From a virus, in IMG/VR virus record IMGVR_UViG_3300023119_000096, positions 1-27,640 of that record: a stretch of DNA of 27,640 nt, one strand, 5' to 3'. This document shows, piece by piece, positions 1-18,808 of this stretch. The position numbers and the translations under genes were made by a program. The notes beneath the pieces are model-generated. The model made no database searches and was not told the origin of the DNA. It saw only the letters and a list, made by a program, of their open reading frames with translations. Within the stretch, counting starts at the first letter, position 1. Each line of letters opens with the position of its first letter.

Positions 1-303
1 TCAGCCGGACTTTTTCTTGGCATTTGTTTTCCCCTCTAACTCTTTTATACGAGCTTCTAATTCATCAATTTTGGATGTGATTTTAGGATACTTAACACGC
101 CATGCATTTGGATCATTTTGTAACCAAGTCCACCCCCAGCGAATTGCTAGATATTCTAGTGTACGGTCAAACTTGCCCACAGCCCATATCGCCATTTTTG
201 TATCTTTGAACCAAAACAAAAATGCAGCGCCAAATAATGAACCAGCAATACCTGTGTAAATCCACAAGCGATCACTTGCCATGTTTTGTATCATTTCCCA
301 CAT
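1..303 (-). CDS. Small one-TM protein, holin candidate
   Basis: A 100-aa protein of unknown family. Residues about 13-32 form one hydrophobic membrane segment near the N-terminus. The rest is basic and aromatic, and residues about 75-95 form a charged heptad-like helix ending in a lysine-rich tail. It is the last gene of a lysis cassette (endolysin, coiled-coil membrane protein, lipoprotein, this gene). The endolysin has no signal peptide and needs a membrane-permeabilising partner, so a holin or antiholin role is a reasonable inference, but no holin family motif was recognised. The ATG at 301-303 has AAGGA at 310-314 as ribosome binding site. Both lie in a strong inverted repeat (see separate entry), which suggests regulated translation. 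The gene is complete, with a TGA stop at 1-3. Confidence 0.75.
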   Translation of the reverse strand: MWEMIQNMASDRLWIYTGIAGSLFGAAFLFWFKDTKMAIWAVGKFDRTLEYLAIRWGWTWLQNDPNAWRVKYPKITSKIDELEARIKELEGKTNAKKKSG

Positions 304-326
304 ATAGTTTCCTTGTTAACTATATG
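301..326 (-). promoter_or_regulatory. RBS-sequestering hairpin of the 100-aa gene
   Basis: A perfect 9-bp inverted repeat pairs 318-326 with 301-309 around an 8-base loop (310-317). In minus-strand RNA the arms read CAUAUAGUU and AACUAUAUG. The start codon AUG is the end of the second arm, and the AAGGA ribosome binding site is in the loop. RNA reading through from the upstream lysis genes could fold this way and block initiation. A promoter placed just upstream would start RNA inside the first arm and release the site. Confidence 0.6.
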
Positions 327-334
327 TATTTAGT
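327..334 (-). promoter_or_regulatory. Degenerate late promoter (ACTAAATA)
   Basis: The minus strand reads ACTAAATA, one base off the NATAAATA late promoter found elsewhere in the window. It lies 23 bases before the ATG, the same spacing as the strong examples (21-24 bases). The predicted start near base 321 falls inside the first arm of the hairpin at 301-326. It overlaps the TAA stop of the preceding lipoprotein gene. Confidence 0.4.
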
Positions 335-2187: not shown

Positions 2188-2899
2188 GGATTCTTTCCGC
2201 TACTAACGTCTTTCCGGCGTGTTCAAAAGTAAGTTTATTACCGTATTTTGTAATGTTATAGTCGCCTATGTATTTTGACAAATAAATGATTTCAGCAAAA
2301 TCATCTGCGTTAAACGATTCTTTTATAGAATCAAGTGTTTCTTGTGTATTGCCTATGTCAATAAATTTAAATTTAATAGGATCTGCATAAAGTTTCTTAA
2401 TAATAAGTGTATCGTCGTCCATTTCTACTGTTTCTAAGAAACTTTTACTAAAAAAGTTTTTATAGTTTTCTAAACGAGATTCATTTACACGACTGTTATA
2501 TTCATCACTTGTAGCAGGAATATCTTCACCTAATGCATCTTGTGAAATTGGAACACTACGGAAATTTTTGTAGTATCTATATTTCATATCTTCTATTTGT
2601 GCAAGTTTTCCTACGCCGTCTAATAATTCCATAATTTGTTCTGGAACATCACGGGTTCGTTCCATTTCAATGAAAACTCTATACAATCCGTCTGACTGCT
2701 CGCCTGCTGTTTTGTCAGCATCTAGTACAAAGTTATATCCGTGTTCTACAAATTTAGCAAGGTCATTTGCTGCTTCTTCAGTTTTTACTTTGAAGGCAAG
2801 TGTAACAATGCTGTCGTCTGACCCCATTTTACTTTTAAACGAATCAATCTCAACTATATGATCAACAAGATCTCTAAGTGCGTTTGCTTCTAAGGTCAT
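2183..2899 (-). CDS. Conserved-looking phage protein of unknown function (238 aa)
   Basis: A soluble, acidic 238-aa protein with no membrane segment or signal. The sequence mixes helices and strands. The N-terminal half (residues 1-110) has alternating hydrophobic strands and a helix (EEAANDLAKFVEHGY), and residues about 190-238 end in short beta hairpins. No catalytic motif was recognised. The start overlaps the stop of the 174-aa gene upstream as ATGA, so the two are probably translated together from the late promoter at 3442-3449. Late expression and proximity to the lysis block suggest a virion or assembly role, but this is only context. It could also be a lysis-time regulator. Confidence 0.8.
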   Translation of the reverse strand: MTLEANALRDLVDHIVEIDSFKSKMGSDDSIVTLAFKVKTEEAANDLAKFVEHGYNFVLDADKTAGEQSDGLYRVFIEMERTRDVPEQIMELLDGVGKLAQIEDMKYRYYKNFRSVPISQDALGEDIPATSDEYNSRVNESRLENYKNFFSKSFLETVEMDDDTLIIKKLYADPIKFKFIDIGNTQETLDSIKESFNADDFAEIIYLSKYIGDYNITKYGNKLTFEHAGKTLVAERIQ

Positions 2900-3420
2900 A
2901 CTGCTGCCTCCGGTGCTGCTTCTGGAGCAGGTGCTGCTGCTGCGTCTGCTGCTTGTGGTTCTGGATTAGTTTCGGGTGTTTGTGTAGGCTCAATATATAC
3001 TTCTTCGTAATAACCGGAATATATGTCAGCAATTAAACGCTTTGGCATTTGAATTGTAACAACCCAAATAGGTTTACGATCTAGTTTGCCCTTTTTAGTA
3101 CCTGGACGATAGTCGTCTTGTGATTTAATTTTTCTAGGAACAATAACATGCGTCTTTTCGTAAGATACTTTGCAATCATAATCAAGTAAACGTTTGCCTC
3201 CCATTGGATCTGGCATGTTTTTTTTGTCCCACATAAAGGAACAAGTTACCCAATGACGTTCGATATTAGGACCTTGACAAAGCTCTCCATCACTCCAGTT
3301 ATCATAGACATAAACATCTAGAGAATCTAAAACTCTTTCAAAGTCTTTTAATACATTAAATGATGTATTTGAATCGTAGATCGATTCAATGTTTTTTAAA
3401 ACGTCTTCAATATCATGCAT
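2896..3420 (-). CDS. Phage protein of unknown function with Ala/Pro-rich tail (174 aa)
   Basis: Residues 1-140 look globular, with many aromatic residues and a basic central part (KKGKLDRKPIWVV). Residues about 144-174 are a low-complexity Ala/Pro/Glu tail, coded by repetitive GCT/GCA-rich DNA at about 2900-2985. That tail is probably an unstructured linker or interaction arm. No family was recognised. It is the first gene of a late unit with a NATAAATA promoter 21 bases ahead of the ATG and an AAGGAA ribosome binding site, and it is coupled to the 238-aa gene by a 4-base overlap. It is divergent from phoH. Confidence 0.8.
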   Translation of the reverse strand: MHDIEDVLKNIESIYDSNTSFNVLKDFERVLDSLDVYVYDNWSDGELCQGPNIERHWVTCSFMWDKKNMPDPMGGKRLLDYDCKVSYEKTHVIVPRKIKSQDDYRPGTKKGKLDRKPIWVVTIQMPKRLIADIYSGYYEEVYIEPTQTPETNPEPQAADAAAAPAPEAAPEAAV

Positions 3421-3441: not shown

Positions 3442-3449
3442 TATTTATC
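3442..3449 (-). promoter_or_regulatory. Late promoter (GATAAATA) for the 174/238-aa pair
   Basis: The minus strand reads GATAAATA, ending 21 bases before the ATG at 3420. An AAGGAAT ribosome binding site lies between promoter and start. It is paired back to back with the plus-strand late promoter of phoH 37 bases away. Confidence 0.7.
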
Positions 3450-3486: not shown

Positions 3487-3494
3487 GATAAATA
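3487..3494 (+). promoter_or_regulatory. phoH: Late promoter (GATAAATA) for phoH
   Basis: The plus strand reads GATAAATA, the only late-type box found on this strand next to a gene start. The predicted transcription start about 6 bases downstream (near 3500) coincides with the first base of a long hairpin in the phoH leader. The leader to the ATG is about 64 bases, much longer than for the minus-strand late genes. Confidence 0.65.
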
Positions 3495-3499
3495 CAAAT

Positions 3500-3534
3500 G
3501 TAAGGACTGCTAGTTCTTATAACTAAGTCCTTAC
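3500..3534 (+). promoter_or_regulatory. 5'-terminal hairpin in phoH leader
   Basis: GTAAGGACT (3500-3508) pairs perfectly with AGTCCTTAC (3526-3534), and TAGTT (3511-3515) pairs with AACTA (3521-3525) around a 5-base loop. This gives 14 base pairs with only a 2-base bulge (3509-3510). No T-run follows it, so it is not a simple terminator, and it leaves the AGGAGG at 3551-3556 exposed. It may protect the mRNA 5' end or serve as a protein-binding element; both are inferences. Confidence 0.65.
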
Positions 3535-3563
3535 TACAGACTCAACCCAAAGGAGGACACTTA

Positions 3564-11430: not shown

Positions 11431-11832
11431 TTACTCACCTTTTTTTACAAAGTTGCCGTCTTCGTCTTCAACCCATTCTTCTTCTGCTGCTTCTTCTGCA
11501 AGCATTTCTATTTCTTCTTGGGTTAATTCTTCTGTAACGACAACAGTTTCTTCTGGTGTTGAAACTACTTCAGATCCTTGTGCTTCTTTTTTTGCTGCTT
11601 GAGCTTTTGCAGATCCGCTGCGTACCTTACCTGCTACTTTGTAGTGTTCACGTACACGATCTTCTGCTTTGCGAATAATTTTTCCGCCTGCACCTAGTTC
11701 ATCACCACGTGCGTTAACACGAGCATTACCTACTGCTGGAGTAAGCTCGTTTCTTTTGCGTAGTAAATCCATGTCTACCACTTTGCCACGCATACTTCTA
11801 TGCTGGGCTTTTACACTATTTTGTTTTGCCAT
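11431..11832 (-). CDS. Charged low-complexity phage protein of unknown function (133 aa)
   Basis: A two-part protein. Residues 1-70 are basic and Arg-rich (QHRSMRGKVVDMDLLRKRNE, then NARVNARGDELGAGGKIIRK). Residues about 85-133 are highly acidic (EEIEMLAEEAAEEEWVEDEDG). There is no membrane segment. The strong charge asymmetry suggests nucleic-acid or chaperone-client interaction, or a capsid-associated part. It lies directly before the GroES-like gene, and a functional link with folding is possible but unproven. An AAGGAG ribosome binding site and a possible degenerate late box (GGTAAATA at 11857-11864) precede the ATG. Confidence 0.78.
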   Translation of the reverse strand: MAKQNSVKAQHRSMRGKVVDMDLLRKRNELTPAVGNARVNARGDELGAGGKIIRKAEDRVREHYKVAGKVRSGSAKAQAAKKEAQGSEVVSTPEETVVVTEELTQEEIEMLAEEAAEEEWVEDEDGNFVKKGE

Positions 11833-11859
11833 AATTGACTCCTTAAACTACGTAGTTAT

Positions 11860-12381
11860 TTACCTGAGAAACTCTCTCCAATCCAGGTCATATTGGATTG
11901 AATTAATTCTGTGTACACCTATCAAATACAGCACATAACTTGCTACACTTGATCCACGTCCTACGCCCCATACAATGTTGTTCTCACGCATAAAGTCCAC
12001 AAGATAAACCATATACTGTAGCAAAGGCATCATACCTCTAACTTCAAACTCGGCAAGTTCTTCAGCGCATCTTGCTGTTTCTTCTTGTGTATTGCATTTT
12101 GTTAGAATATAGTTGTGTACGTTAAGTGTTTTGTATTCGTCAGGCATAAACCATTCGCTTTGACATACACCGTCAAAAGTCTTTTGATCTACATCTAATG
12201 GGATATACTTTTGTAGTGAAGGAAGACCTTGTTCTTCCATTGCGGCATTGAATTTGTCTACATCGTCTGATTCTGTACAAAGTACAACATGTACCTTGTC
12301 AGAATTACCGCTATAGATCATATCTATAAGGTCGCGGTTAGAGAATCGTGGTATACCTAGTTCGTCTGTTCTCATAAGCAT
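11860..12381 (-). CDS. Stand-alone DnaE/Pol III alpha-like fragment
   Basis: A 173-aa protein whose C-terminal half (residues about 95-173) aligns by eye with bacterial Pol III alpha (C-family polymerase) palm entry. It has a helix of the EYELxVI kind, then VYLVDFMRENNIVWGVGRGSS and the YDLDWREFL end, matching the known GPGRGS...YDLLFERFLNPE. It stops exactly where DnaE continues to the catalytic PDFDVDF, so the metal-binding aspartates are absent. No PHP domain is seen upstream. The next gene starts 28 bases later and no catalytic part is found in other frames. It is thus a non-catalytic domain: a remnant, a repurposed binding protein, or one half of a split gene. The ATG at 12381 has no clear ribosome binding site, and 12375 is an alternative. 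Confidence 0.75.
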   Translation of the reverse strand: MLMRTDELGIPRFSNRDLIDMIYSGNSDKVHVVLCTESDDVDKFNAAMEEQGLPSLQKYIPLDVDQKTFDGVCQSEWFMPDEYKTLNVHNYILTKCNTQEETARCAEELAEFEVRGMMPLLQYMVYLVDFMRENNIVWGVGRGSSVASYVLYLIGVHRINSIQYDLDWREFLR

Positions 12382-13250: not shown

Positions 13251-14528
13251 TTAAAATCCGTATCTTGCTTTTGAGTTCGCGTAGTTAGCGTTTAGCTCAT
13301 CGGTAGTTAATGATCTATTATAAAGTTTAACTTCGAAATATCTACCTCTAAAGTTTTGTGTACTTTCGAAGTTACCGTTGTTTGCATCCATTTCCTGTCC
13401 TAGTACAATACCTAGTGTACTGTTACCGTTTAGTGTAGTAGTGTTTGAACCACTACCTATTAGTACATTATCTTTGTACAAAGATACAGTTCCGCCTACT
13501 CCGCGCATAACAAGATTTGTTATTGTTCCGTTAGTAAACGATGCACCACTAAAGTTTGTTGCACTAGTGTTTTCAAATGCTATCTCACTGTTACTTGTTC
13601 TTTGATACATCAGCGCATGGTTACCACTACCCATTGTGAAGAATGTATCCAAATCTGTGTTTGCTGCGTCTCGTTGTAACCATAAATCTATAGTAAACTC
13701 ACTTGCACCTTGTAGTGCGTTAATATCGAGAGTGATATAGTTTGTTGTGTTCTGAGTACTACCTAAGTTAATACTGCTGTCGCCTGCATCAAATGCTGTT
13801 GTGCCTTGTAATGTTGCATCATAACCGTTACCGCTAAGATCGAACCATGTAGTTCCTGTTCCTGGATAACTGGCTGTATCCCCAGCAACAAAGTATGCTC
13901 TAAGATTTTGTGTAACAAGAGCATCTACGGCTAGAGTTGCAACTAAGTCACTTGTGTTACCGCTTTCGTCTGTAGCTCTAATAGTTACTGCAGACTCTCC
14001 AGGTACTGTTGGTGTTCCTCGTAAAAAGCCGTCGGTAATAATTATTCCAGTAGGTAATGTACCCGATTGAACTGTGTAAGTAACAAATCCCGGATCTGTT
14101 GCTTCTAGCTCAATATTATTATATTCATTGTAAGTCAAAGTAATATCTGCACTTGTGACCCATACTGGCCCTACACTATCTGTATTATCAGTTATTGCAG
14201 ATACACTTATATCATCTCCTGCTCTAATACCATATGCCACAGCACTCACTGCATTATGCGAACTTAAAACTGTAATATACTTTTCTGTAGGCACTGTTAC
14301 TGCGCTTCTTTCAAGCACACCTTTTGGTTTTAATACCGTTGCGTATTCAATATAACGTGCATCATCAAAAGCATTTTCTGCATCTGTAATTGCAAGTGTT
14401 ACCTCAACGTCAACATTGTGTCTATTACAAATGCTAATATTAGCCGTAGTGAACTGATCAGTGTCGCACTGATATATAGATTGTGTTACACCACCAGTTA
14501 AATCATGTGTTCCTAGTATTCCGCTCAT
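13251..14528 (-). CDS. Adhesin with Ig-like and LamG (concanavalin-like) domains
   Basis: A 425-aa virion protein in three parts. Residues 1-115 are a beta domain with paired cysteines (Cys21, Cys34). Residues about 120-202 are a putative-Ig (He_PIG) domain with the GTLPTGIIITDGFLRGTP signature and a TIRATDESGN strand. Residues about 205-425 form a LamG/concanavalin A-like lectin fold: YFVAGD, WFDLSGNGYDATLQG, FTIDLWLQRDA, LYKDNVLIGSG and FRGRYFEVKLYNRSLTTDELNA are typical strands. LamG domains bind glycans or proteins, so receptor recognition on the host surface is likely. The gene is 7 bases after the 1176-aa gene. A late box lies only 5 bases before the ATG. Confidence 0.88.
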   Translation of the reverse strand: MSGILGTHDLTGGVTQSIYQCDTDQFTTANISICNRHNVDVEVTLAITDAENAFDDARYIEYATVLKPKGVLERSAVTVPTEKYITVLSSHNAVSAVAYGIRAGDDISVSAITDNTDSVGPVWVTSADITLTYNEYNNIELEATDPGFVTYTVQSGTLPTGIIITDGFLRGTPTVPGESAVTIRATDESGNTSDLVATLAVDALVTQNLRAYFVAGDTASYPGTGTTWFDLSGNGYDATLQGTTAFDAGDSSINLGSTQNTTNYITLDINALQGASEFTIDLWLQRDAANTDLDTFFTMGSGNHALMYQRTSNSEIAFENTSATNFSGASFTNGTITNLVMRGVGGTVSLYKDNVLIGSGSNTTTLNGNSTLGIVLGQEMDANNGNFESTQNFRGRYFEVKLYNRSLTTDELNANYANSKARYGF

Positions 14529-14532
14529 ATCG

Positions 14533-14540
14533 TATTTATC
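14533..14540 (-). promoter_or_regulatory. Late promoter box (GATAAATA) abutting the LamG gene start
   Basis: The minus strand reads GATAAATA only 4 bases before the ATG at 14528 and overlaps the stop of the upstream gene (TAG-GATAAATA). If used, the RNA would start at or just inside the start codon and be leaderless. AGGA (14538-14541) within the box may instead serve as the ribosome binding site on RNA from the 18089 promoter. Coincidence cannot be excluded. Confidence 0.35.
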
Positions 14541-17500
14541 CTACATTGTATGCATAGTTTGCAAATAGAATGTACCTTTCATCTTCATAGTCTTCAGTTC
14601 TTCTTACAATATATCTATCAATATCTATGTGAAATTGTTTAAAGTCAAACTCACTATTTCTAATATTGTTGATAATGTCATCTGCTTCACCCGGTTTACA
14701 ATAACAAATTGGTATGGCACTAACATAATCTAATTCTTGGAAACCATCTTGCGGGCTACGCATCCATAAAGGAAGATAATTTCTTTCATTTTTTCCAATT
14801 GATTTAATGTTTGAACGCATATTATCAATATTAGATATATATCTTACATTGTCTTGGCTAGAGCTAACTTTGACTGCATCACTATCTGTTTTAATAGTGT
14901 TAGTGTCTGGACGCAATCTATAAGGCTCGGCATCTGATAATTGTAAACTTACTGTAACATCTTCACCTTCTCTAACATCCAGCTCAAAATCAGAATCGTC
15001 AACATCAAAAATTATTTGCTCATCGTCTCTTACCGTAACAATAATTTTTCCGTCTTCTGCAAAAATAAACCTAACTTGTCCGCGCCCATAAACAGGTAAT
15101 TGATCATAACCTGCTCCGGTTCTGTTTTCATCATCTTTTACAGCGTATTGTATACTATCGACAGTTAGTTTCTTTTTGTTGTTTATATTAATACTAGTTC
15201 TAGTTTTTCCTGTTTTTGGATTAGATGGATCAATAACTTCGACGTACACAACTTCATATATAACATCAGTTGTTCCGTTTTCCATTGCTACTGCTTTTTT
15301 AACTTCGCCTAGTGCATAAGTTTTTCTTTTATGATTTTTTGCTGCGGCAGCAACAAATTTATCTATTGAAGTTGATTCTATTCCAGCATATACAAGCATC
15401 TCCATTTGATTTTTAATTCCAAAGTTTGAATCACTTGGTCTGTAAATACTATCCGGTGGGAACACTTCTGAACTACTTGTAAAGTTTCTAAATGCAGTTC
15501 TTTGATCTGCTGGAATTAGAGGTCGTGCATACACGTCAGTGTAAACAACATTGTCAAGGTCTGCTACGTTTAGAGTAAATGTTCTTTCAATCGCTGTAAA
15601 TCCAAAACGATCTCGTGCCTCAACTGTAAATGTATACTTTCTATCAAATGTAGTTACACCCGTGATATATCCATCCCATTTTGCATTACCGCTATCAAAA
15701 AGTGTTAATCCAGGACCTTCTGAAGTTTCAAACTGTCTTGCTGCTCCAATAATATCTCCATTGAAACTTAAACTTAATCCATATGGTAACTTACCCGATT
15801 TAATAGTATAAATCATAGGACTATCAGGAACCGTAGTTTGTGCTTCTAATTTTAAATAACTTCTAAAGTTTGCATTAATAGTTCCTAAATCTGCATCTGT
15901 AATCCAAGATATTTCACTATCAATTTCACCAATAGTTTTAAGTTCAAAAGTTTTAGGAGTACTAGGAATGTCAACTTCGTCTCTCGCTGCTACAATAACA
16001 TTTTCAAAAAATCCATCGTTTTTAAACAATGCTATACCAATGTTTCTACCTTGACTAAATTGTGTACTTAAATTTGTATCTAGCAAAAGTCTGTGTTCGT
16101 TATCTCTTACTAGGGTAACATTCATTTGGGTACTATCATCGCCTAATGTAAAGAATTGTTTAATGTTATTTGCAATTCTACTTAAACTTGTACTAGGAAT
16201 TCTTATGCGCCAGTTTTGTGCATTTACAATGTTTACGTATGCTGTATGTCCGTATGCTGCTTCTAGTGTTTGTATTAGTGCTTCTTTTCTTATAGACAAA
16301 CTTAACTCGTCGATTGTTTCTGCTACTTCTGTCCAATTTGCACCGTTGAATACAACCTGTGTTACACCGTCAACAACAATAGGATTATCATCACCATCAG
16401 TCTGTGCAGAAACAGTATGTGTGTAAGTGGCTATATAAATTCTATCATTGCCGCCTGTTTCACTACCATATATTATATAATCACCGATGAAGTAATTTTC
16501 TCCTGCTGCAATTCTTCTTGGCGACCCGCTAGGAAAAATTTCATCTTCTGAAGGATTTGTTTGTTGCACATCCCATTCGAGATAAGGAACAATACTGCTA
16601 ATAGTATATGCTTCAGAATCACTTAATCTAATAGTTCTGTTAGCATATTTTTCTTTTTGTGCTTCATTTAATCTGTTAACAAATATTGTAGGTTGTCCAG
16701 TTTTGGCTGTACGTGATACTATTAAACTTATACTTGGTGATAATGTTGAACTTAAAAATATAATATCATATTCACTGTTTCTAGCATCAACGTTAGTAAC
16801 ACGATATGTTCTATTTTCTAAAAGTATATCTCTAGTAACAAGTTCAGTTAAATCATTTATTCCGTCGATATCTCCGGTAAGATCTAATTTGTAAACCTTA
16901 AACGAGTCTTTTCCTAATAGTGTATCTTCGTAATAGTTTGCATTAATAGAAACAGTTTCTAAATCAGTAGTAATTCTCGTTGCTCTTACTGTAAATTTAT
17001 GATCTCTAGTAATAGCAGGTTGGTACGGTAGTCGTCCTGTTATTTCACCTGACTGACTATCTAGTGTTGTTCCTGGTGGAAGTATACTTGGTGTGCCGTC
17101 GTCGTTAGTACTATCAAGTGTATAAACAATCACTCCTTCTAGGTTTTGATTTTGTATGACATCAAGATATATTGTTGTATAATTGTTTGCTCTTTTATAT
17201 CCTAAATCTCTAGGGGTTAGCCAAACCGGTGTTCTAACATTTGTTGCATCAGCAGTAAATACACCTGTACCTACTTGCATGATTGTGTTGTCTGCTTTTA
17301 GATAATCATCGCCTACAAGATAAATTGTAAATTCACGTTTTACAAAATTTTCGCCATCAGTAACTGTAACTCTAAAATTGTAATATCTATTTAATTTTCG
17401 AGGATTTGCATAAGGTTCGTTATAATCATAATCAACTGTGTCATAGAAAAAACTACTAAAACCGTTTGTTGATAAAATACCATAGTCCATAGGTAAACCA

Positions 17501-18066
17501 GCAAATGGCGATGTATCATATCCGCCGCCGACATATCTTAAATCTAAACTAAGCAAAGGTTCTACTATTCCAGTTAACCTTCCGTCTAGTGATAAAGATA
17601 CACCTGGAGGAAGAACCCCGTCGCCTTCAGCAATAAAATATTCTAAAACATCTCCCGCACTTAGGTCAGGATCTACTGCTTCAAGTTGGTAATCTATAAT
17701 TGCATTATCAAGTATGAAAAGCGATTGGTTTGGCCCTACAGGAAGCAAGCCTTCATTTGTACGCCATTCGGGTGCATCAGGACCAGAAACATCTATTTGT
17801 ACAGTTCTGTCTTCTAGTTTATCTTTGTAAGTTGCTCTTAATGTAAATCTACTAGAAGTATTATATGCAACTTCGTAAACAGTTCCTTCAATAAAACGTT
17901 GATCTTCTGATATACGCAAGCCAGCAGGCAGTCTACCTGCAATAACTTCGACATTACTATTGTAAGCAGAATTTAGTGGTAGTAGTAAGTTAACAACGGA
18001 TCTTTCGACCATTGTTGCAATTTTTCTACCTGTGGGAACTGACCATAAACTATCCGGTTGCGCCAT
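14536..18066 (-). CDS. Large virion protein with several putative-Ig domains
   Basis: A 1176-aa structural protein, the largest complete gene here. At least four putative-Ig (He_PIG-like) units are marked by a LP-x-G-x-x-L...G-x-I/L-x-G pattern: residues about 45-62 (RLPAGLRI), 149-166 (VLPPGVSLSLDGRLTG), 327-345 (ILPPGTTLDSQSGEITG) and about 755-775 (KLPYGLSLSFNGDIIG), each followed by a FTVRA-type strand. Similar domains form the shafts of cell-surface and fibre proteins. The last 110 residues (NYLPLWMRSPQDG, AIPICYCKPGEADD, FKQFHIDIDRYIV) are a distinct conserved-looking module, perhaps for assembly onto the tail. It begins a late unit with its own NATAAATA promoter at 18089-18096. No enzyme motif. 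Confidence 0.88.
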   Translation of the reverse strand: MAQPDSLWSVPTGRKIATMVERSVVNLLLPLNSAYNSNVEVIAGRLPAGLRISEDQRFIEGTVYEVAYNTSSRFTLRATYKDKLEDRTVQIDVSGPDAPEWRTNEGLLPVGPNQSLFILDNAIIDYQLEAVDPDLSAGDVLEYFIAEGDGVLPPGVSLSLDGRLTGIVEPLLSLDLRYVGGGYDTSPFAGLPMDYGILSTNGFSSFFYDTVDYDYNEPYANPRKLNRYYNFRVTVTDGENFVKREFTIYLVGDDYLKADNTIMQVGTGVFTADATNVRTPVWLTPRDLGYKRANNYTTIYLDVIQNQNLEGVIVYTLDSTNDDGTPSILPPGTTLDSQSGEITGRLPYQPAITRDHKFTVRATRITTDLETVSINANYYEDTLLGKDSFKVYKLDLTGDIDGINDLTELVTRDILLENRTYRVTNVDARNSEYDIIFLSSTLSPSISLIVSRTAKTGQPTIFVNRLNEAQKEKYANRTIRLSDSEAYTISSIVPYLEWDVQQTNPSEDEIFPSGSPRRIAAGENYFIGDYIIYGSETGGNDRIYIATYTHTVSAQTDGDDNPIVVDGVTQVVFNGANWTEVAETIDELSLSIRKEALIQTLEAAYGHTAYVNIVNAQNWRIRIPSTSLSRIANNIKQFFTLGDDSTQMNVTLVRDNEHRLLLDTNLSTQFSQGRNIGIALFKNDGFFENVIVAARDEVDIPSTPKTFELKTIGEIDSEISWITDADLGTINANFRSYLKLEAQTTVPDSPMIYTIKSGKLPYGLSLSFNGDIIGAARQFETSEGPGLTLFDSGNAKWDGYITGVTTFDRKYTFTVEARDRFGFTAIERTFTLNVADLDNVVYTDVYARPLIPADQRTAFRNFTSSSEVFPPDSIYRPSDSNFGIKNQMEMLVYAGIESTSIDKFVAAAAKNHKRKTYALGEVKKAVAMENGTTDVIYEVVYVEVIDPSNPKTGKTRTSININNKKKLTVDSIQYAVKDDENRTGAGYDQLPVYGRGQVRFIFAEDGKIIVTVRDDEQIIFDVDDSDFELDVREGEDVTVSLQLSDAEPYRLRPDTNTIKTDSDAVKVSSSQDNVRYISNIDNMRSNIKSIGKNERNYLPLWMRSPQDGFQELDYVSAIPICYCKPGEADDIINNIRNSEFDFKQFHIDIDRYIVRRTEDYEDERYILFANYAYNVG

Positions 18067-18088
18067 ACTTGAATCCTTTTATTACAAG

Positions 18089-18096
18089 TATTTATC
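18089..18096 (-). promoter_or_regulatory. Late promoter (GATAAATA) for the 1176-aa gene
   Basis: The minus strand reads GATAAATA, 22 bases before the ATG at 18066, with AAAGGATTC as ribosome binding site between. It lies in the short gap just downstream of the 235-aa gene. Confidence 0.7.
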
Positions 18097-18100
18097 GGAA

Positions 18101-18808
18101 TCATATACTTCCAAGATCTATGTTTCCAGAAGCCGGTGCACCAAATGTTCCTAAATCAACATCAATGTTTGTTACTAAGAAATGCATTAGACTACTATAA
18201 TCTGGAACTATGCCACCAAAGTCGAATCCAGCATTCCATTCTGCCCAATCACGGATATCGTAACCCCAAACATTGCCTTCCATGTTTCCTGCAAAAAATC
18301 CGGTGATTGTACTTGCATTAACTACACCAACATTTAATAAATCGTTTCCTTGTGCGTCCAAATTGCCGCCTAACTGAGGTGTAAGGTCTTCAACTAGTTC
18401 AGCAATGTTAGTGTTTTCAATAGTAAGAGTACTGTCAACAATTGAAGTAGTAATACCATCTCCGCCTGCAATAGTAAAGGACGCTACATCGTCAAGCGTT
18501 ACATTTCCACTGTCACTGTTTATTGTAAGTGTGTCTAAACCTACATCTGCCGATATAACAATTTTATTTTCATCTGCGGTAAGTGTAATTTTATCTGAGC
18601 CGGCAATTTTTTTAAATTGTAGATCGTAATTTACTTTGTTGTAATAAAGACCTTCGCCGACTGATCCAAGATTTGAAACAGTTGTTTGTTCGTCGTCTCT
18701 AAGATCTAGTTCTTCAAAATTGGTGTTGATTTTGATCATCGCTTCGCGAAGATCATCACCTGTACCGTCATTTGCTACACTACCAACATTGATTAATTGA
18801 ATTGCCAT
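18101..18808 (-). CDS. Fibre protein paralogue (235 aa)
   Basis: A 235-aa structural protein. Residues 1-40 are a modular N-terminus (INVGSVANDGTGDDLREAM followed by IKINTNFEELDLRD) nearly identical in pattern to the start of the 462-aa protein of this block. The middle is a repetitive beta region (ITLTADENKIVISAD; LTINSDSGNVTLDD), followed by a TPQLGGNLDAQGNDLLNVG motif typical of phage fibre shafts. The C-terminus has aromatic and Gly-rich segments (WAEWNAGFDFGGIVPDY). It starts 9 bases after the subtilase stop with an AAGGATAAG ribosome binding site, so it shares the subtilase transcript. The shared N-terminus suggests docking at the same virion site as its paralogue. Confidence 0.85.
   Translation of the reverse strand: MAIQLINVGSVANDGTGDDLREAMIKINTNFEELDLRDDEQTTVSNLGSVGEGLYYNKVNYDLQFKKIAGSDKITLTADENKIVISADVGLDTLTINSDSGNVTLDDVASFTIAGGDGITTSIVDSTLTIENTNIAELVEDLTPQLGGNLDAQGNDLLNVGVVNASTITGFFAGNMEGNVWGYDIRDWAEWNAGFDFGGIVPDYSSLMHFLVTNIDVDLGTFGAPASGNIDLGSI

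Follow-up and report, generated by a model that had tools for sequence, protein, structure and literature searches.

Gene X, which occupies positions 1 to 303 on the - strand of the stretch of DNA from an uncultivated T4-like phage analysed here (the window, 27,640 nt; IMG/VR record IMGVR_UViG_3300023119_000096), probably carries in its leader a switch of the type described for T4 gene e, in which a late promoter is combined with a hairpin over the start codon. RNA that reads through into X from upstream would fold an 11-bp hairpin that holds the AUG in its stem and the Shine-Dalgarno sequence in an 8-nt loop, and ribosomes would initiate poorly at X on such long RNA. RNA begun at the adjoining late-type promoter would start within the 5' arm, at about position 321, could not fold the hairpin and would be translated. 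The first-pass annotation had proposed a gene e-like switch at this place, and the proposal is supported by two comparisons, since among relatives of X hairpin and promoter box occur together and the arms show compensatory changes. On this comparative evidence from sequence, the hairpin is shown to be a selected RNA structure that is tied to the promoter box. Such a tie is what the switch predicts, because a gene with a hairpin of this kind needs an RNA start of its own inside it.

On the - strand, the hairpin and box region reads ACTAAATACATATAGTTAACAAGGAAACTATATGTGG. Folding and a scan for inverted repeats place the 5' arm at 318-328, the loop (AACAAGGA) at 310-317 and the 3' arm at 299-309. 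The loop contains the Shine-Dalgarno sequence AAGGA (310-314) and the 3' arm contains the ATG (301-303), just as had been noted at first, when the repeat was described as one of 9 bp (301-309 with 318-326); that repeat is present but longer, with 10 perfect pairs (300-309/318-327), or 11 if the U-G pair 299/328 is counted. The inverted repeat with the start codon, the Shine-Dalgarno sequence and the adjoining box is a real and confirmed feature of the window. A perfect repeat of this size is in itself not rare there (three hits at two places, compared with 1.8 hits on average over 20 shuffles), yet the folded leader is unusual, and comparison with relatives is the decisive evidence. The 45-nt leader of X has a minimum free energy (MFE) of -10.4 kcal/mol, while its shuffles have -2.54 (sd 1.5; z -5.2, 0/200). 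RNA from 321 has an MFE of -0.4 kcal/mol, with 149/200 shuffles folding as well or better, so that the expected difference in folding energy between read-through and late RNA was found. The computed cost of freeing positions -12 to +3 falls from 9.9 kcal/mol in the read-through RNA to 1.2 kcal/mol in the late RNA; in predicted folding, the start region is paired in the former and not in the latter, in agreement with the earlier claim that read-through RNA hides the start and late RNA exposes it. The same folding applied to the leader of T4 gene e gives -10.9 for the long RNA and -2.8 for RNA from its upstream late start. An intrinsic terminator or attenuator at this site was ruled out, as no T run follows the hairpin and a terminator scan lists none there. 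Rfam gave zero matches in the window at the gathering threshold.

The late-type box ACTAAATA lies at 327-334 on the - strand and includes the TAA stop codon (330-332) of the upstream gene. If the box spans -13 to -6, as it is defined for T4 (sections of PMC1524935), the predicted RNA start is position 321, inside the 5' arm, which agrees with the start near 321 predicted before. Its departure from TATAAATA had been put at one base; mismatches occur at two places, -13 and -12, and the description can be judged fair because -13 shows little conservation in most T4-like phages of the published comparison (sections of PMC1524935). With its C at -12, X has one of the weaker boxes in the window. The same C is found in the Aeh1-type late promoters (CTAAATA; sections of PMC1524935), whereas among X leaders it is the minority form: the 60 leaders with a box comprise 53 xATAAATA, five xCTAAATA and two others. 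The layout of a T4-type box with its predicted +1 in or after the 5' arm is present in the window and also in many relatives.

The motif TAAATA is rarer in the window than in shuffles (26 vs 42). Fourteen boxes lie on the - strand, where the lysis cassette and the majority of the window's named genes are found, and seven of them are located 21-37 nt ahead of a gene start, namely of X, the endolysin gene (box at 2187), a virion gene (3449) and four genes with starts at 11832, 18066, 20722 and 23470; one more box sits 4 nt before the ATG at 14528. As half of these boxes closely precede gene starts, their reading as late promoters is a natural one. Apart from that of X, the gene-leading boxes of the window are all xATAAATA, with GGTAAATA as the sole exception.

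Relatives of X in IMG/VR numbered 222 in one scan and at least 576 in another. Leaders were compared among the best 80 matches of each of five scans, one of which alone yields at least 576 relatives, so that the 83 distinct leaders, window included, represent the closer relatives only; contig L001 was merged with the window as a duplicate, and L017 was left out of the counts because of too little upstream sequence. Of the 83 leaders, 60 carry a TAAATA box no more than 40 nt from the start, and 23 lack one. A hairpin over the start, defined as an MFE of -5 or below with at least five of the positions -6 to +6 paired upstream, occurs in 47/60 boxed and 3/23 boxless leaders (Fisher p 6e-8), and the mean leader MFE is -7.6 and -2.5, respectively. 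Thirteen boxed leaders fall outside this definition, and some of them fold at 0 (L031, L061). The boxless loci (L022, L035, L037, L057 and others), with no start hairpin apart from these three, form a natural control in which lysis timing could be compared with that of boxed relatives. Computed over 57 boxed leaders, the mean cost of opening -12 to +3 is 8.6 kcal/mol for read-through RNA and 2.0 kcal/mol for late RNA, with a fall of at least 3 kcal/mol in 53 of them. A gp55-like late sigma factor (phrog_12791, E about 1e-78) was found in three of ten long contigs of relatives and not found in the other seven, two of which measure 167 and 237 kb. The window, for its part, is a fragment.

The hairpin could also be a by-product, if the conserved start-site sequence of a promoter, forming the 5' arm, and a conserved coding ATGTGG happened to match. 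CACAT and ATGTG are indeed nearly constant, ATGTGG is kept in 21/23 boxless leaders, and mixed arms fold even so at about -5.6. We regard this explanation as highly improbable, as other box-led starts in the same loci seldom fold, the variable inner pairs covary and leaders do better with their own arms than with swapped ones. In the loci of one scan plus the window, an MFE of -7 or below was reached by 26/46 X starts and by 4/94 other box-led starts, which were gathered mechanically and include chance boxes inside genes; the idea that a hairpin is a general trait of late starts was rejected on this count. Across 57 boxed leaders, own arms fold at -7.69 and arms swapped between loci at -5.62 (sd 0.24; 0/20000 permutations). 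The difference holds for 39 clusters defined by gene identity below 90% (z -8.1, 0/20000) and for 17 clusters (0/20000), and is not significant at the coarsest clustering of five clusters (1685/20000); a smaller run agrees, with 0/10000 for 42 pairs and 1/10000 for 15 representatives. These clusters were built by gene identity, and compensatory changes are counted over leaders rather than as events on a phylogeny. Three boxed leaders with a box-to-start distance of 15 nt (L063, L068 and L185) stand outside the arm-swap, strand and upstream-stop analyses; translation of these three, and perhaps of L281 as well, seems to begin at a different ATG farther upstream.

The compensatory arm changes for which the first-pass annotation had proposed to align related phages were found. 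Inner pairs vary on both sides with pairing kept, chiefly at 7/-2 and 8/-3. In the commonest register, represented by 28 leaders that were picked by register and hence by pairing (unlike the arm-swap set, which was chosen by neither), pair 7/-2 is GU in ten, GC in nine, UA in five and AU in three (paired in 27/28), and pair 8/-3 is UA in 23, AU in four and CG in one (28/28). Pairing weakens toward the loop, where pairs 9 to 11 are formed in 23/28, 18/28 and 9/27. A change on both sides is seen in L166, which carries CATGTAGTT/AACTACATG compared with CATATAGTT/AACTATATG in the window. Covariation was scored on 27 of the 28 leaders plus the window, whose best register differs (26 distinct rows); the score is 0.206, compared with 0.093 (sd 0.017) for shuffles (0/500) and 0.025-0.061 for slid versions, and 89.7% of cells are paired, compared with 82.5 in shuffles (0/500). 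The number of pairs changed on both sides (5; 124/500) and of further pair types (10; 33/500) is not clearly above shuffles, so that the signal rests on the cells, the pairing and the arm swapping. RNAalifold returns the same stem with eight pairs.

The same comparisons bear on the reading of the inverted repeat as a DNA operator, at which a dimeric protein bound over the late promoter would act as repressor or activator; a near-perfect palindrome adjoining a promoter box might point to one. This we consider barely credible, because the arm sequence varies among relatives while pairing is kept, and loop length and register vary as they would not in a protein site. The 57 boxed leaders fold better in sense (-7.69) than in antisense (-4.88), and interior G-U pairs (32) exceed A-C combinations (10), which indicates selection on the sense RNA rather than on a DNA palindrome. 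Several registers occur, with 28/60 leaders in the commonest and the window as one of nine in another, which suggests that occlusion of the start is kept rather than one exact stem.

A different use of the RNA hairpin would be translational coupling. X would then be closed on polycistronic RNA unless a ribosome that ends Rz1 translation at the TAA (330-332) opens the 5' arm, and X would be made in step with Rz1. A terminating ribosome might act in this way because the Rz1 stop lies in the box; it finishes 1 nt ahead of the 11-pair stem. The upstream frame ends at the box TAA in 21/57 boxed leaders and a stop lies near the box in 44/57, and leaders with a nearby upstream stop fold better (mean -8.21, n=44) than those without (mean -5.95, n=13), which nevertheless still fold. 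Coupling requires no promoter, yet boxless leaders are nearly devoid of the hairpin (3/23). We retain coupling as a rival because of the Rz1 stop inside the box and the frequency of upstream stops there, and think it unlikely, as it leaves the tie between box and hairpin unexplained.

The protein that the late-promoter switch would control has 100 aa, with a hydrophobic segment at residues 12-32 at its N-terminus and a charged tail after it. Identity is 77-96% across 40 aligned relatives, X belongs to no named family and to no holin family in Pfam or PHROGs, its structure model is poor (pLDDT 56, pTM 0.22), and a tblastn search (E 1e-3) of the named-phage collection gave no relative. X comes after lysis genes in relatives, and a holin role for it is putative. 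In the window, the gene directly upstream on the - strand encodes an Rz1-like outer spanin (330-785, from the chosen ATG; phrog_812 'Rz-like spanin', E 2.5e-9), which is labelled Rz1 on the basis of gene order and a LAGC-type, lipoprotein-like N-terminus. It follows genes on the same strand for an Rz-like inner spanin (782-1279; phrog_739 'Rz-like spanin', E 8.5e-11) and an endolysin with chitinase-like and peptidoglycan-binding domains (1285-2142; phrog_181, E 3e-71; PF01471, PF00182). When loci of the 222-relative scan with more than 4.2 kb upstream were searched with the proteins of the window (tblastn), a lysis gene was found upstream of X in 49/50 boxed loci, and the full order of virion gene, virion gene, endolysin, Rz and Rz1 in 32/50; the endolysin of the window is unmatched in 12. 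Among the eight boxless loci of this kind, seven have a lysis gene, Rz in all cases, with no endolysin match and no full order.

X had been called the last gene of the lysis cassette, which does not hold: the window merely ends at the stop codon of X, and contig L001 (6299/6300 bases identical) runs on into gene Y (L001:6281-6697, + strand; 138 aa). The two genes share 23 nt, with the ATG of Y inside the end of X. Y shows two hydrophobic stretches by eye, and the hydropathy cut-off is passed by one stretch in Y of L001 and by two in Y of L002 and L014. It matches phrog_10198, a family of unknown function. Y looks more holin-like than X and is the better holin candidate of the two. In some relatives, for example L002 and L014, the gene at the place of Y differs in sequence and carries an EF-hand-like segment at its N-terminus. 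A Y-like gene overlaps or adjoins X in 49/59 boxed and 8/23 boxless leaders, counted without the window. Among named phages, matches to Y are partial, none over 80% of its length, and come from 358 records, of which 348 belong to Vibrio phages; one named phage has an Rz-like spanin about 3 kb away from the match, and two others that were inspected have no lysis gene named nearby. The named phages with Y-like segments (Vibrio, Roseobacter, Pelagibacter) only suggest a marine origin. Given the overlap of the two genes, a single switch would probably govern both of these membrane proteins of the lysis cassette, which we infer to be a holin and its partner.

Farther upstream in the window, a + strand PhoH-like gene is followed by - strand genes for thymidylate synthase, dihydrofolate reductase and the clamp loader. 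As these nucleotide-metabolism genes share the strand of the lysis genes, their RNA could in principle extend into the latter; between them and X lie the PhoH-like gene and late-type boxes. Two of the boxes, AATAAATA before the endolysin gene (2180-2187, - strand) and GATAAATA before a virion structural gene (2896-3420; box 3442-3449, - strand), are possible sources of late read-through RNA, which may therefore be shut out too. The hairpin would exclude early RNA, late read-through RNA or both, the late read-through part being plausible. More speculatively, and with considerable doubt, one hairpin-gated promoter might be the sole translatable source of X and the overlapping Y, as holin plus partner, across a large clade of uncultivated T4-like phages, excluding even late polycistronic RNA with endolysin and spanins and so setting the time of lysis. 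The leader offers a putative lysis-timing element that is open to simple reporter tests, and suggests that T4-like phages be searched for further hairpin-gated late promoters.

Among known systems with comparable leaders, T4 soc encodes a capsid protein, gene 49 is annotated as endonuclease VII, and I-TevI and Aeh1 mobE are homing endonucleases; unlike X, none belongs to lysis. On long RNA their starts lie in an inhibitory structure, as predicted for X; for I-TevI the late promoter is positioned so that late RNA cannot fold the structure, and a comparable layout is reported for mobE (sections of PMC2988022 and PMC3014915). The closest likeness is to gene e, itself a lysis gene, where a late promoter lies before the end of the 5' arm and the start is covered in long RNA and not in late RNA; lysozyme synthesis from the long RNA is 100-fold lower, and the switch, documented for T4, has also been predicted for its close relatives (sections of PMC3014915). 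The two differ in that e is the endolysin, whereas X is a small membrane protein that belongs to no named family and the endolysin of the window has a separate late-type box. Gene e has two late promoters (sections of PMC3014915) and X one box; in the computed fold of e the Shine-Dalgarno sequence lies in the stem, whereas at X it lies in the loop with the AUG in the stem, and the phage clade is different. As predicted from layout, folding and covariation, the same logic would act here on another lysis-cassette gene, in phages whose X has no relative in the named-phage collection. Among the papers listed in literature searches, none deals with a holin of T4-like phages that is controlled by a hairpin-gated late promoter.

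Some other box-led leaders of the window contain inverted repeats. In that of a 1176-aa gene (14536-18066; leader 18040-18130, - strand), GATAAATACTTG...CAAGTATG forms a predicted late-promoter hairpin, with opening costs of 7.3 and 1.1. Relatives of this gene (24 loci) give 11 distinct leaders, ten of them boxed, with folds of -0.3 to -4.4, the strongest being that of a leader identical to the one in the window; as the hairpin is weakly kept, a firmly kept second switch was rejected. The endolysin leader (2143-2187, - strand) is long, with 37 nt from box to ATG, and has a GGGG..CCC inverted repeat, with a predicted opening cost of 5.7 in read-through and 0.8 in late RNA. At 11833-11864 (- strand), the box GGTAAATA is followed by the palindrome AACTACGTAGTT and then by a Shine-Dalgarno sequence, and at 3487-3540 (+ strand) the box GATAAATA precedes the PhoH-like gene and is followed by the inverted repeat AAGGACT...AGTCCTT.
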